Assembly (NCBI RefSeq): GCF_018141525.1
Contig: NZ_CP064655.1
Coordinates: 1,954,501 to 2,018,500, forward strand
DNA from: Miltoncostaea marina
GTDB taxonomy: Bacteria > Actinomycetota > Thermoleophilia > Miltoncostaeales > Miltoncostaeaceae
Direction of reading: 5' to 3'
Length of the DNA stretch: 64,000 bases
The notes under the pieces are model-generated. The model had not been told where the DNA came from, did not search any database, and worked only from the letters and a program-made list of their open reading frames with translations. The translations under genes and the position numbers were made by a program. Positions 1,889 through 12,070 of the stretch are shown here, piece after piece; the first letter of the stretch is position 1, and each line of letters starts with the position of its first letter.

Positions 1889-2000
1889 TTGGCCGGGGTC
1901 AGGCCGGAGTCGCCAGATCCTGGTCCGTGACCCCGTCGGACCCAGGCGCCCGCGTCGCGCCACCATCCCCGGGGCCGTCCCGCGGTGGACGACCGGCGAT

Positions 2001-2570
2001 TCAGCGGCCGGCGCCCGCCTCGGGGAGCAGCACGACCGGGATGCCCGCGCGCCCCGCGCAAGCGATCGCGTGCACCGTGCGCCCGCGGGGGCGCTCGCCG
2101 CGGTGTGCGGCCACGCAGATCGCCGCGGCCGGGCCGAGGCCGTGGCCGCCGAGCACGATGCCCCCGTTGCGGGCCAGCAGGCGCTGGTCGTCGTGGTCGC
2201 GCGGCGCGCCCCGGCCGGGGTCGGCGTCGCGGGCGAGCGCGACCCAGTCGGCGTGCAGGGCCGGGTCGAGCGCGACCACCGCCGCGCCGGGCGGGCGCGC
2301 GGCCGGCTCGAAGCCGCTCCACGGCACCACGAGCTCGACCGCCCCGCCGCCGGCGGTGGCGCCGGCGGCGTAGGCCTGATCGGCGCCCGGCGAGCCACCG
2401 GTGCGGACGGTGTGGCCGGCGCGCGCCAGCGCGGCGCCGACGCGCGCGCAGAGCTCCAGGCCGGCCGGCGACAGCTCGCGCTCGCCGACCGCCGCCACGA
2501 CGGCCGGCCGCCGCAGCGCCGGGTGGGCGAGCAGGCGCTCGAGCGCGGGCCGGTCGCCCATGCCGGACAC
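2001..2570 (-). CDS. SLOG-superfamily nucleotide-binding protein (DprA/Smf-like fold)
   Basis: This is a 189-residue Rossmann-like protein. An AAVGERELS strand near residue 28, HTVRTGGSPGADQAYAAGA around residues 53-71 and a C-terminal HAIACAGRAGIPVVLLPEAG are the hallmarks of the DprA/Smf and LOG-like (SLOG) fold, where the GGSPGAD loop binds a nucleotide or phosphate. It lacks the DNA-binding surroundings of true DprA, which is present at 51.7-52.8 kb. The substrate is unknown; a nucleotide-sensing role is inference from the family. A second possible start lies three codons downstream. Confidence 0.7.
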   Translation of the reverse strand: MSGMGDRPALERLLAHPALRRPAVVAAVGERELSPAGLELCARVGAALARAGHTVRTGGSPGADQAYAAGATAGGGAVELVVPWSGFEPAARPPGAAVVALDPALHADWVALARDADPGRGAPRDHDDQRLLARNGGIVLGGHGLGPAAAICVAAHRGERPRGRTVHAIACAGRAGIPVVLLPEAGAGR

Positions 2571-2833
2571 CCTACGCCGACGGGCCGCCGCGCCCGTGCG
2601 GCCGCCGCAGGGGCCGGTCAGCCCGGGGCCGGCGGCGCCTGGGATTCTCGGACTCCGACCTCCACCACCGCCAGGGCGGCCCCGGCGGGTTCATGGGCGT
2701 GGAGGAAACCTGGGCTGACGGCTTCGCCCTGGCGGCCATCGCCGGGGCGCGACCCCTGCGCCAGGTTCGGGCAGGTGGCCGGCGTGAACGAAGGGTTCCT
2801 CGACGCTACGGCTGGCGGGGCGACGCTCGTGCC

Positions 2834-3004
2834 ATGTTCCCGCGCCTGCGCGACGACGGCACCATCCTCCTGCCCCTGCGCGCGGAGGGGCAGGACGGCG
2901 TGGCGGGGGAACGCGCGGAGGTCATCGGGCCGGACGACGCCCGGTACGAAGCCCTGGCGGCCGCGTTGCGTGAGCGGCAGGCCGCGGAGGCGCCGGAGGA
3001 CTGA
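2834..3004 (+). CDS. Hypothetical 56-residue protein
   Basis: This short ORF starts MFPRLRDDGTILLPLRAEG, continues with GPDDARYEALAAALRERQ and ends in an acidic tail. Third codon positions are almost all G or C, as in genuine genes here, which supports coding. There is no membrane segment, no Cys and no recognised domain; a short beta hairpin followed by one helix is likely. It sits tail to tail with the radical SAM gene (59 bases between stops). The 263 bases before it hold no other ORF that can be supported. Confidence 0.45.
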   Translation: MFPRLRDDGTILLPLRAEGQDGVAGERAEVIGPDDARYEALAAALRERQAAEAPED

Positions 3005-3063
3005 GCCGACCGGGGCCGGCCCACCCTGCGGGGTGTGCCGGCAGTCCTGGTGATCAGCGGGAC

Positions 3064-4110
3064 CTACGCCGGGCGGCCGGCGCGGCTGGAGTGGTGCCCC
3101 ACCTGCGCAGGCCTCGCGGGGCGCGCCGCGCTGTCGCGGAGGCCGTCGACCTGACCTCCCTCGGCGGCCGCCGCGACCAGCGCCTCGTGCCAGTTGACCA
3201 GCAGCCGGTCGCCCGCGAGGAACGCGCCCCAGACCCGCTCGCAGAGGCGCTCGACGGCCGGCCGGCGCACGGCGGCGAAGCGCGCCCAGGCGTCGCGGAC
3301 GCGTGTGCGGGTCACGTCGCAGACCGCGTACCGCCGATCGAGCCCGTACGTGGACGGCACCAGCGTCCCATCGTCCTGCAGGCAGAGCACGCCGAGCGGG
3401 TGCGGCGGCCCGGCCTGCTCGTCGCGGTGGACCAGGTCGAGCTGCACCACCATCGCGCCGCGGTAGAGCACGCGCAGCGCCGCGGTCAGCACGTGGACCT
3501 GGAGCAGCACCTCGTCGTCGGGCCGCTCGCCCCCCAGCCCCTGCGTCGCCCGCCCCGCCGCCTCGAGCGCGTGCAGTTGCAGCAGGCGCGCGCCGTGGGC
3601 GTGGGCGAAGCCGGCCGCCCAGGCGACGTCGCGCCACGAGGACCGGCCGACGGTGTACACCACGCCGAAGGGCACGCCGGCGTCCCGCGCCCGGCCGATG
3701 CCCGCCTCGAGCCGGGCGAAGGCCCCGCGACCGCGGATCCGGTCGTGCAGGTCCGGCGGCCCGTCGAGGCTCACGGCCAGCACATCGACGCGCCCGGCCA
3801 GGAGGTCCAGGCGGCGGGCGTCCAGCAGCGTGCCGTTGGTGGTCACGGTGGTGCGCAGCCCCGCGGCGCGGGCGCCGTCGAGCAGCGCCGGCAGGTCGGC
3901 GAACAGCAGCGGCTCGCCGCCCGACACGGCCACGGTGCCGTAGCCCAGCGCCGCGCAGTCCTCCAGCGCCCCGACGATCGCCCGCACCGGCAGCGCCGCG
4001 CGGGCGCGTGGCCCGGACATCGAGTAGCAGTGGGCGCAGCTCAGGTTGCAGCGCAGCGAGGGGTGCACCTGCACGACGCCGGGCGGGGGCGCGGCCGACG
4101 TGCCGGCCAC
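3064..4110 (-). CDS. Radical SAM protein with SPASM/twitch-like C-terminus, candidate peptide maturase
   Basis: This is a 348-residue protein. The N-terminal cluster motif is LRCNLSCAHCYS (CxxxCxxC for the 4Fe-4S cluster that cleaves SAM). It is followed by VSGGEPLLF (SAM-binding GGEP), TTVTTNGTLL and VLAVSLDGPPDLHDRIRG, a segment typical of SPASM-type peptide modifiers. The C-terminal part has LCLQDDGTLVPS, AVCDV and RLCERVW, so only three Cys remain where full SPASM domains have about seven. The start is a GTG with GAGGGG upstream; an ATG is absent in this frame before the cluster. It lies 29 bases downstream of the FPKGI-repeat protein and is probably co-transcribed. A role in modifying that protein is inference from context. 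Confidence 0.8.
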   Translation of the reverse strand: MAGTSAAPPPGVVQVHPSLRCNLSCAHCYSMSGPRARAALPVRAIVGALEDCAALGYGTVAVSGGEPLLFADLPALLDGARAAGLRTTVTTNGTLLDARRLDLLAGRVDVLAVSLDGPPDLHDRIRGRGAFARLEAGIGRARDAGVPFGVVYTVGRSSWRDVAWAAGFAHAHGARLLQLHALEAAGRATQGLGGERPDDEVLLQVHVLTAALRVLYRGAMVVQLDLVHRDEQAGPPHPLGVLCLQDDGTLVPSTYGLDRRYAVCDVTRTRVRDAWARFAAVRRPAVERLCERVWGAFLAGDRLLVNWHEALVAAAAEGGQVDGLRDSAARPARPAQVGHHSSRAGRPA

Positions 4111-4139
4111 CGCGTCGCCCCTCGCCCGGCGCGCGCCGC

Positions 4140-4496
4140 CTACCGGAAGCCGATCTCCGCCTCGAGGATGTCGGGGAACGGGATGCCCTTCGGGAAGATG
4201 CGGATCTCGTCGATCTGCGGCAGCTCGCGCAGCAGGTCGACGAGCCGCCCGGCCCCCTCGAGCCCGACGATGGTCTGCACCCGCACCCCGTCCGGGATGA
4301 CGATGCCCTTCGGGAAGACGCGCATGGGCCGCACGCCGGCCGCGTTCATCGCGGCGACGGCCTTGCTCATCTGCTTGAGCGCGTCGCCCTTCAGGCCCCC
4401 GGCCTGGAGGGTCCTCACCAGGTGCGACTCGAGCTCCCGTTCCGGGACCGGATCCTGCGGGAGCGAGATCCCCGCCTCGCGTGTCGCTGTCGCCAT
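4140..4496 (-). CDS. FPKGI-repeat protein, candidate substrate of the adjacent radical SAM enzyme
   Basis: This 118-residue protein is not recognised as a known family. Residues 15-55 look helical and could act as a leader (PERELESHLVRTLQAGG...). Residues 59-69 and 99-109 are two near-identical segments, R-[VI]-FPKGI-[VP]-[IF]-PD, exactly 40 residues apart, and the second lies only nine residues from the C-terminus. There is no Cys and no membrane segment. AGGAG sits seven bases before the ATG. A leader-like N-terminus, repeated C-terminal cores and a downstream radical SAM gene suggest a RiPP precursor. The alternative is an ordinary small folded protein with an internal duplication. Confidence 0.7.
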   Translation of the reverse strand: MATATREAGISLPQDPVPERELESHLVRTLQAGGLKGDALKQMSKAVAAMNAAGVRPMRVFPKGIVIPDGVRVQTIVGLEGAGRLVDLLRELPQIDEIRIFPKGIPFPDILEAEIGFR

Positions 4497-4529
4497 GTCG
4501 GCACTCCTGTCTCGGTGCGAGCACAGAGT

Positions 4530-4545
4530 CCACCGCTGACGGTGG
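4530..4545. promoter_or_regulatory. Perfect inverted repeat upstream of the FPKGI gene
   Basis: CCACCG-CTGA-CGGTGG has two perfect 6-bp arms. It lies 34 bases upstream of the FPKGI start codon, between it and the divergent LigD-type gene. It could be an operator or an RNA hairpin in the leader; which one is not visible from sequence. Confidence 0.3.
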
Positions 4546-4675
4546 CCTGCCGAGTGTCGTGGACGCCGCGGGCGGGGCGCCATCACCTCCTGTGGTGACG
4601 GGACCGGGTGCGCCGCCCGGTTCTCACGCTTCGGGCCCGCGCACCCGGGCGCGCGACGCCGTCGGGCGCCTGCGG

Positions 4676-4687: not shown

Positions 4688-5716
4688 ATGGCGGCGGAGC
4701 CCGAGCCCCTCGAGCTGGACGCGGGCGGGCGCACCGTCGCGATCAGCAACCCGGACAAGGTCATGTTCCCCGAGCACGGGGAGACGAAGGCCGACCTCGC
4801 CCGCTACTACCTGGCCGTGGCCGAGCCGCTCATGGCGACGGCCCGCGGCCGGCCCGCGCTGCTGCAGCGCTTCCCGAACGGGGCGACCGGGCAGTCGTTC
4901 TTCCAGAAGCGCATCCCCCAGTCGGCGCCGGGGTGGCTGACCACGACGACGGTGTCGACGCCCAACGGCACGACCTCGCGCGCCCTCGTGCTCGCCGACG
5001 TCGCGCACGTGCTGTGGGCGGCCAACATGGGCTGCCTCGGCTTCCACGTGTGGCCGTACCGGGCCGCGCGCCCCGATGAGGCCGACGAGCTGCGCCTCGA
5101 CCTGGACCCCTCCCCCGGCGTCACCTTCCCCATGGTGCGCGAGGCGGCGACGGAGGTGCGGGCCCTCCTCGGCGAGCTCGGGATCGCGGCGTACCCCAAG
5201 ACCACCGGCAACCGCGGGCTGCACCTGTACGTGCGCGTGGAGCCGGGGCGCGACTCGTTCGCGGTGCGCCAGGCCGCCGTGGCGGTGGCCCGCGAGATGG
5301 AGCGCCGGCGCCCCGACCTGATCACGGGCGCGTGGTGGAAGGAGGAGCGCGGCGCGCGGGTGTTCGTCGACTTCAACCAGAACGCGCCGCACAAGACCGT
5401 GTTCGGCGCCTGGTGCGTGCGGGCGCGGCCGGGGGCGCAGGTGTCGGCACCGTTCGCGTGGGACGAGATCGATGCGATCGAGCCGGACGAGCTCACCATG
5501 CGCACCGTGCCGGAGCGGCTCGCCCGGCTCGGCGACCCGTGGGCGGGCATGGACGACGCGCCGCAGTCGATCGAGCCGCTCGTGGAGCGGTACCGGGCCG
5601 ACCTGGCCCGCGGCGTCCCGGACGCCCCGTGGCCGCCGGTCTACCCGAAGATGCCCGACGAGGCGCCGCGGGTGGCCCCGAGCCGCGCGCGCGGCGCGCG
5701 AGGGGGCGGGGGCTGA
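4688..5716 (+). CDS. LigD-type DNA polymerase/primase (PolDom)
   Basis: This 342-residue protein matches the polymerase module of bacterial LigD, an archaeo-eukaryotic-primase fold that fills gaps in non-homologous end joining. Signs include ISNPDKVMFPEHGETKADLARYY at the start, WAANMGCLGFHVW, the metal-binding LRLDLDPSPG (DxD), KTTGNRGLHLYVR and FVDFNQNAPHKTVFGAWCVR. There is no ligase or nuclease domain on this polypeptide and no ku gene in the window, so any partners must lie elsewhere. The last 20 residues are a low-complexity Arg/Gly tail. It begins an operon with the ATL-AlkA fusion and a Nudix gene. Confidence 0.9.
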   Translation: MAAEPEPLELDAGGRTVAISNPDKVMFPEHGETKADLARYYLAVAEPLMATARGRPALLQRFPNGATGQSFFQKRIPQSAPGWLTTTTVSTPNGTTSRALVLADVAHVLWAANMGCLGFHVWPYRAARPDEADELRLDLDPSPGVTFPMVREAATEVRALLGELGIAAYPKTTGNRGLHLYVRVEPGRDSFAVRQAAVAVAREMERRRPDLITGAWWKEERGARVFVDFNQNAPHKTVFGAWCVRARPGAQVSAPFAWDEIDAIEPDELTMRTVPERLARLGDPWAGMDDAPQSIEPLVERYRADLARGVPDAPWPPVYPKMPDEAPRVAPSRARGARGGGG

Positions 5717-10163: not shown

Positions 10164-10619
10164 TCAGGCGCGACCGCGCAGCGCCGCGACGGCCGTCTTC
10201 TGGACCGCCGTCAGCAGGAAGTAGAGGCCCGTGACCGCGAAGCCCGTCAGCAGCCAGGCCGGCCACCCCTGCGCGATGCGCACGATGAGCGCCGCCGCGC
10301 ACAGCGCCCCGCCGGCCGACAGGAGGTGCGCGTTGCCCCAGATCGAGACGTGCGTCTCGCGCGGCGAGGCGGTCGGGCGGCGGACGCCGCGGGCGAGCGC
10401 CTCCAGCAGCACGAAGGCCGCGACCGCGCCGCCCATCAGGGCGAGCGCGTCGCCCAGCACCGGCCCGCCGAGCCGGTGCGCCGCCTGGGCGATGGAGCCG
10501 CCGAGGGCGATCGTGTAGCCGTACGCGCCCGCGGCCGACGACACGGTCCCCGCGAGCTGGCGGCGCAGCTCGCGGGCGCCCTCGTCGGCCCCGGCGCCCG
10601 GAGCGTCGCCGCCGTTCAC
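10164..10619 (-). CDS. Small membrane protein coupled to the macrodomain gene
   Basis: This 151-residue protein of unknown function has about four hydrophobic segments: roughly residues 28-45, 55-72, 95-112 and 118-140. Its N-terminus is charged and soluble (GADEGARELRRQLAG). No family is recognised. The GTG start overlaps the stop of the macrodomain gene (GTGA), so translation is probably coupled and the two products may act together at the membrane. There is no metal-binding or catalytic motif. Confidence 0.7.
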   Translation of the reverse strand: MNGGDAPGAGADEGARELRRQLAGTVSSAAGAYGYTIALGGSIAQAAHRLGGPVLGDALALMGGAVAAFVLLEALARGVRRPTASPRETHVSIWGNAHLLSAGGALCAAALIVRIAQGWPAWLLTGFAVTGLYFLLTAVQKTAVAALRGRA

Positions 10620-11131
10620 CGCCCGGCCAGGCGCTCGTGCGCCTCCCGGTACGGCGCGCGGAGCCGCTCGTCGAGGAAGCAGAACCGCGCCACGCGCACG
10701 CCCGGGTGCGCGGCCAGCGCCTCCGCGAGCGCGGCGACGGCGACCGGCGCTGCCAGCCCGACCGGGTAGCCGAAGATGCCGGTCGAGATGGCCGGGAGCG
10801 CGACGGAGGCGAAGCCGCGCTCGGCGGCGCGCGCCACGACGGCGCGGTGGCAGGCGGCGAGCAGCTCGTCCTCCCCCGCCCCGCCGCCCCGCCAGACCGG
10901 GCCGACGGCGTGGATGACGGCGCGCTGGGGCAGGCGGCCGGCCGTGGTCACGACCGCGCCGCCCACCGGGCAGCCACCGAGCTCGCGCGACTCGCGCACG
11001 AGGTCGGGACCGGCCGCCGCGGCGATCGCGCCGGCCACGCCGCCGCCGTGGGCGAGGTGCTCGTTGGCGGCGTTGACGATCGCGTCGACCTCCTGCGCCA
11101 GCAGGTCGGCGACGGCGAACTCGATGGCCAT
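10616..11131 (-). CDS. Macrodomain protein (O-acetyl-ADP-ribose deacetylase-like)
   Basis: This 171-residue protein is a single macrodomain. It shows VDAIVNAANEHLAHGGGVAGAI, where the Asn and Gly residues line the ADP-ribose pocket, then RAVIHAVGPVW and VALPAISTGIFGYP (phosphate loop). The family removes ADP-ribose or acetyl groups from ADP-ribose derivatives, linking to NAD metabolism or reversal of ADP-ribosylation. No ADP-ribosyltransferase is visible nearby. It is followed by an overlapping membrane protein and is divergent from an AlkA-like gene. Confidence 0.92.
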   Translation of the reverse strand: MAIEFAVADLLAQEVDAIVNAANEHLAHGGGVAGAIAAAAGPDLVRESRELGGCPVGGAVVTTAGRLPQRAVIHAVGPVWRGGGAGEDELLAACHRAVVARAAERGFASVALPAISTGIFGYPVGLAAPVAVAALAEALAAHPGVRVARFCFLDERLRAPYREAHERLAGR

Positions 11132-11173
11132 GGCCGCACGGTACCCGCACCGGCGCCCCGCCCGAACGCCCTC

Positions 11174-11179
11174 TACGCT
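11174..11179 (+). promoter_or_regulatory. -10 box, leaderless start of the AlkA-like gene
   Basis: TACGCT ends six bases before the GTG at 11186. No ribosome site lies in between, which fits a leaderless transcript. Confidence 0.45.
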
Positions 11180-11185
11180 CACCGC

Positions 11186-12070
11186 GTGGTCCTCGAGACG
11201 ACGCTCCACCCGCGCGGGCCCTACTCGCTGGCCGACTCCTCGGCCGGCACGGCGGGCGGCACGCGCGTCATGCGCGGCGGCGTGCTGCGCCTGTGGGACC
11301 TCGTGGACGGCCGCCCCGCGCTCGTGCGGCTGTGGCAGCGCGCCGACGGGGCGGTGGAGGCGCGGATGGACGGCGCCGAGCCGGAGCGGGCCGCCGACCG
11401 CCTGCGCTTCCTGCTCGCCCTCGACGTCGACCACTCGCCGTTCCTGCGCATGGCCCGCCGCGACCCGCTGGCCCGCGACGTGGCGCTGCGCACGCCCGGG
11501 CTGCGGCCGATGCGCCTGGCCACGCCCGCCCACGCGCTGCTGGCCGCCGTCTGCGGGCAGCTCGTGTCGGGCCGCGAGGCGGCCCGCCTGCAGCGGGCGG
11601 TGCTGCGCATGTGCACCGGCGAGGCCGACGGCCTGCGCCTGCCGCCCGCCCAGGCCGACCTGGCGGCGCTGCACCCGCCGCGGCTGCGCGCGGCCGGGCT
11701 CGCCGAGCGGCGGGCGGCGGCCCTCGTGCGGGTGGCGCGGGGCCCGTCGCTGGAGCGGCTCGCCGGCCACCCCACGCCGGACGTCGTGGCCGCCATCCGG
11801 CGCGAGCCGCAACTCGGGCCCTGGTCGGCCGGGGTGATCGCGATGCGCGGGCTGGGCCGCTACGACCACGGGCTGATCGACGACCTCGGCCTCGTGCGGC
11901 TGTGGGCCGCCGTGCACGGGCGGCCACCGGAGCCGGGCCAGACGCAGGAGCTGCTCGCCCCCTACGGCGAGTGGGCCGGGCTGGCGAGCGAGTACCTGCT
12001 GCGCCACCCGGTGGCCGCCCTCGGCGGCGGCTGGCACCGCGCCGGGGGCCGGCGGCCGGCGGGCCGCTAG
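11186..12070 (+). CDS. AlkA-like DNA-3-methyladenine glycosylase (HhH-GPD)
   Basis: This 294-residue protein has an N-terminal domain (ETTLHPRGPYSLADS...GGVLRLWD) like the substrate-facing domain of AlkA, followed by a helical HhH-GPD core. The helix-hairpin-helix reads LGPWSAGVIAMRGLGRYD and the catalytic region LIDDLGLVRLW (Asp pair 232-233). It should remove alkylated purines from DNA. It is the second glycosylase in the window beside the ATL-AlkA fusion, and the two differ strongly in sequence. The start is a GTG just after a -10 box. Confidence 0.85.
   Translation: MVLETTLHPRGPYSLADSSAGTAGGTRVMRGGVLRLWDLVDGRPALVRLWQRADGAVEARMDGAEPERAADRLRFLLALDVDHSPFLRMARRDPLARDVALRTPGLRPMRLATPAHALLAAVCGQLVSGREAARLQRAVLRMCTGEADGLRLPPAQADLAALHPPRLRAAGLAERRAAALVRVARGPSLERLAGHPTPDVVAAIRREPQLGPWSAGVIAMRGLGRYDHGLIDDLGLVRLWAAVHGRPPEPGQTQELLAPYGEWAGLASEYLLRHPVAALGGGWHRAGGRRPAGR

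Follow-up and report, generated by a model that had tools for sequence, protein, structure and literature searches.

A small protein with two FPKGI motifs and its adjoining radical SAM enzyme, kept together in two phyla: a candidate enzyme–substrate pair

What does a radical SAM enzyme do beside a small protein that carries the same five-residue motif twice? The question is raised by two genes on the reverse strand of a 64-kb window, the whole stretch of Miltoncostaea marina DNA that was analysed. The first of them (4140–4496, ATG start) encodes a putative substrate of 118 residues, free of cysteine, tryptophan and tyrosine, with the segments RVFPKGIVIPD (F61) and RIFPKGIPFPD (F101): the first FPKGI motif spans F61–I65 (4302–4316), the second F101–I105 (4182–4196), and the phenylalanines are spaced 40 residues apart. 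An open reading frame of this length with two near-identical FPKGI segments 40 residues apart is what the initial annotation had described, and both shuffling analyses agree with it. The degenerate FPKGI codon pattern matches the window at the two motif sites only, with no match in 100 dinucleotide shuffles, and the internal-repeat score of the protein is 50, against 23.9 ± 4.4 (maximum 37) in 200 shuffles. Both genes have a GC3 of 0.97, as found in genuine neighbouring genes. Pfam and NCBIfam returned no match for the small protein, i.e., nothing similar is catalogued there, and an open-access text search found no paper joining “FPKGI” and “radical SAM”.

The second gene encodes a radical SAM enzyme, a class able to carry out reactions that are otherwise difficult to achieve. 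It starts 29 bases downstream (gap 4111–4139), runs over 3064–4110 from a GTG at 4110, and gives a protein of 348 residues with the motifs CNLSCAHC, SGGEP, LAVSLDG and HDRIRG, so the downstream gene and the last two segments are present as first described. The cluster-binding motif, C21xxxC25xxC28 (4027–4050), is invariant in four of four relatives; together with a Pfam Radical_SAM (PF04055) match of 85 bits (E = 8.9e-24; cutoff 29.5), it places the protein in the radical SAM superfamily. Within the superfamily, the enzyme is above the cutoff of no curated NCBIfam radical SAM family: many models match partially over the core, all far under cutoff, the best being TIGR04347 with 90.5 bits against 525 (99.7 bits against 525 is the best NCBIfam score of the Bradyrhizobium ivorense relative introduced below). 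The best PDB sequence match, SkfB (3.6e-14), covers residues 19–209 only.

One or two extra iron–sulfur clusters are bound by the SPASM and twitch domains, which lie at the C-terminus, and an RRE is found at the N-terminus of many RiPP radical SAM enzymes (PMC8326336). The C-terminal half of the window enzyme had been described as a reduced SPASM-like region with three cysteines. The cysteines are there (C243, C264 and C290), but the assignment to SPASM does not hold: none of the three is a cysteine in either Bradyrhizobium enzyme, and the cysteines of those enzymes (206, 215, 235 and 259) are not cysteines in the window enzyme. Because these residues are not conserved, the enzyme is not of the SPASM/twitch type, and the same pattern in the sequences points to catalysis without an auxiliary cluster. 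No more than about 11 residues lie ahead of the core, and searches of the enzyme with Pfam and NCBIfam gave no RRE, a domain easily missed by sequence. The window enzyme thus resembles the SPASM/twitch maturases (SkfB, PqqE, the mycofactocin maturase and CteB) in its CxxxCxxC core and in having a small-protein gene beside it, but unlike them has neither conserved C-terminal auxiliary-cluster cysteines nor a recognisable N-terminal RRE, and the similarity is confined to the core.

Relatives of the pair came from a DNA scan covering 84,980 species genomes, in which two codon strings for FPKG[hydrophobic] had to lie 35–45 residues apart. This gave 87 stretches, two of which are a small ORF adjoining a radical SAM gene, in Bradyrhizobium semiaridum (L080) and B. 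ivorense (L091). In both, the small gene lies upstream and ends 1–2 bases from the enzyme gene. Their small proteins share about 30% identity with that of the window, a relation scoring 66 against 28.4 ± 5.9 (maximum 56.5) in 1,000 shuffles, and their enzymes are 40–41% identical to the window enzyme over the full length, forming one clade with it in the tree (support 100/99). The FPKG positions are 61/101 in the window protein and 39/79 and 53/93 in the Bradyrhizobium proteins, i.e., the spacing is 40 in all three, and the window, L080 and L091 each encode two such motifs at this spacing directly ahead of an enzyme whose C-terminal module is common to them. The small gene and the enzyme gene alike show a dN/dS of about 0.19 when the two Bradyrhizobium species are compared, indicating purifying selection, and the region of the first motif is wholly unchanged. 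Of the remaining double-motif stretches, some were repeats or large ORFs of no relation and others did not lie in one open frame; repetitive FPKG[LMFI] ORFs among them (L059–L135; Treponema, Acidobacteria and others) are probably repeats rather than genes.

The two-gene unit proposed from the window alone is therefore a conserved one: in three of three genomes found, the gene of the FPKGI protein immediately precedes that of an enzyme from the one radical SAM clade. A wide occurrence of the small domain without a radical SAM gene, raised as the case against the proposal, was not seen, since every one of the three FPKGI proteins has its enzyme. The flanks drift while the two FPKG motifs, their spacing and the radical SAM neighbour are kept; the copy number, which the initial annotation had proposed to examine for variation, is invariably two. 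As two of the three FPKGI proteins are closely related to each other, the number of independent lineages behind the conservation is two.

Within the sampled genomes, the pair is rare, three of them having the FPKGI form. Simple protein searches with the small protein returned nothing from 101 relatives and the 84,980 species genomes; pattern scans of genome and viral contigs, alignment scans of viral contigs and tblastn against plasmids gave no confirmed relative. Among the candidates scored per genome, no further member appeared in 99 Bradyrhizobium, 347 same-order and 201 genomes of one actinobacterial family, nor in 237 and 137 genomes at class level. Phylum-level matches of the small protein with E between 0.001 and 0.2 were scattered over unrelated frames and treated as noise, and one Bradyrhizobium match (L149) was set aside in the same way.

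A more distant pair is found on a plasmid of Mycolicibacterium sp. CBMA 213, where a radical SAM protein (L146:5923–7062) shares 31% identity with the window enzyme and has the gene of another 118-residue protein directly upstream (L146:5536–5892). The C-terminal module of the window enzyme (3067–3567), which contains no conserved cysteine, is common to the Bradyrhizobium and Mycolicibacterium enzymes: a profile built from the window and Bradyrhizobium C-termini recovered the Mycolicibacterium enzyme (E = 1.3e-8) as the sole non-member among 2,345 ORFs, a set that included dozens of other radical SAM proteins. The exact position of the Mycolicibacterium enzyme in the tree is not fixed. Its small neighbour has no FPKGI, with GPRGPHGPRPHVG in its place, carries GTVGPRGPHGPRPHVG, and is rich in Gly, Pro and Arg; kinship with the FPKGI proteins is not demonstrable, 41 of 300 shuffles scoring as high. 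The plasmid pair sits among Fic, PemK/MazF and RES-domain genes.

The 118-residue protein was modelled together with its two Bradyrhizobium relatives, with modest confidence (mean pLDDT 64.9, pTM 0.49). The model has helices at 19–32 and 37–52, strands at 56–61 and 71–78, a helix at 79–90, and strands at 95–102 and 110–117, so that each FPKGI runs from a strand into a hairpin loop, the first following strand 56–61 and the second lying at the end of strand 95–102. Foldseek and fold searches with this model gave weak matches to unrelated proteins (PilO, Amuc_1100 and anti-sigma factors), none of them an RRE. A duplicated hairpin unit fits the 40-residue spacing across two phyla better than free core repeats do, and, given the predicted β-β-α-β-β fold, a leader–core RiPP peptide is no likelier than a folded protein that is modified.

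On this basis, we lean, by a little, toward an enzyme–substrate pair in which the FPKGI loops of a small folded protein are the target of a radical SAM enzyme free of auxiliary clusters. The 118-residue protein would be made first and would fold into an N-terminal helical part and a small domain of two equivalent β-hairpins, with FPKGI running into each loop. The enzyme, with SAM bound on the [4Fe–4S] cluster held by CxxxCxxC, would generate a 5′-deoxyadenosyl radical and modify both equivalent loops at the same position, most likely the Phe, Lys or Gly of FPKGI. The pairing in two phyla, the kept motifs and spacing, the lack of cysteines and the purifying selection are observed; the substrate role of the small protein, the modified residue, the product and the function of the modified protein we infer. 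Known radical SAM enzymes that act on folded or protein substrates include QhpD (on the QhpC subunit) and the anaerobic sulfatase maturases, to which the likeness is by analogy, namely a protein and not a short peptide as the putative substrate; those enzymes, in contrast, have auxiliary clusters, and the window pair has no recognised oxidoreductase or sulfatase partner. A compact pair with neither SPASM clusters nor a recognisable RRE, and with twin loops at one geometry in two phyla, is small and lends itself to testing, and if the loops are modified, radical SAM maturation would reach beyond flexible core peptides and include paired sites of a folded protein.

The predicted folded domain and its exactly kept geometry would also suit a binding protein. 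The small protein may, in a reading that we consider unlikely, be a partner, i.e., an accessory or recognition subunit that positions another substrate while its two FPKGI hairpins contact the enzyme. PqqD plays such an accessory part for PqqE, and an enzyme with about 11 residues before its core, hence probably no built-in RRE, might need one. Against this, no other candidate peptide substrate was noticed beside the pair in a non-exhaustive coverage of the small ORFs, and the best Foldseek matches are weak and include no RRE.

Rather more doubtful is a leader–core RiPP, with a leader at about residues 1–55 and the FPKGI region as a core that would receive, for example, Phe–Lys crosslinks and be released by a general protease. 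The gene order, the size and the helical N-terminus of the model are as such a precursor would have them, and the F-P-K triplet spaces an aromatic residue and Lys as three-residue cyclophanes do, so that Phe-x-Lys could suit the aromatic-to-Lys crosslink of the triceptide systems. Triceptide maturases, however, carry SPASM domains; the window enzyme has no such cluster and no recognisable RRE, scores 48 bits against AmcB (NF041718; cutoff 425), and acts, if on its neighbour, on a protein predicted to be folded. It is the C-terminal half of the small protein, where the core would lie, that is conserved and predicted folded, and the number of motifs is constant. The genes beside the pair, inspected by eye, include no recognisable protease, exporter, RRE or user protein. 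Sactipeptides and ranthipeptides, named initially as possible products, share the two-gene layout of precursor and radical SAM enzyme, but no cysteine is present in the small proteins of the window and B. semiaridum or in that of B. ivorense counted from its ATG; a thioether through a cysteine of the same protein is therefore excluded.

A small molecule or a tetrapyrrole-like compound is improbable as the substrate, with the small protein no more than a loosely co-transcribed neighbour: TIGR04347, NirJ and the Ahb enzymes (AhbC, AhbD) are by score the closest curated models over the core, but their matches are all partial, far under cutoff and leave the C-terminal half unmatched, while the pairing is kept across two phyla at gaps of 1–29 bases and the related Mycolicibacterium enzyme also has a 118-residue gene just upstream.

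The enzyme–substrate reading can be carried further, although we regard the extension as speculative and unlikely in full: the cluster-poor enzyme would make an undescribed protein-derived cofactor or twin crosslink on the FPKGI loops, and the C-terminal module would mark a new maturase subfamily serving different small proteins in each lineage, the FPKGI form in the window bacterium and Bradyrhizobium, and the Gly-Pro-Arg-rich form on the Mycolicibacterium plasmid.

The setting of the pair in the window is that of an accessory segment. In three congeneric genomes, the DNA is conserved from about 4663 rightwards, and a methyltransferase–tRNA-Asn stretch (about 1050–1890) is conserved at another place, the two flanks lying far apart in at least one congener (G001). 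The intervening 1890–4663, pair included, has no DNA-level match in the three congeners, nor has the small protein any match in them. As the congeners have no matching segment between the conserved flanks, the pair lies in an accessory segment beside a tRNA gene: the segment starts just after tRNA-Asn (1782–1854), and is possibly an island or a rearrangement point. Also within the segment, at 2001–2570 on the reverse strand, is a protein that by eye resembles an SLOG/DprA-like Rossmann domain. Upstream of the pair, 4688–5716 encodes a protein that by eye is LigD-polymerase-like, 82–85% identical in the congeners and with three matches in the genome. A gene for a solute-binding protein was not seen adjacent to the window pair; in both Bradyrhizobium species, one directly follows the enzyme gene (L181:7697–8491; L182 near 10481–11413), with which it may be co-transcribed.
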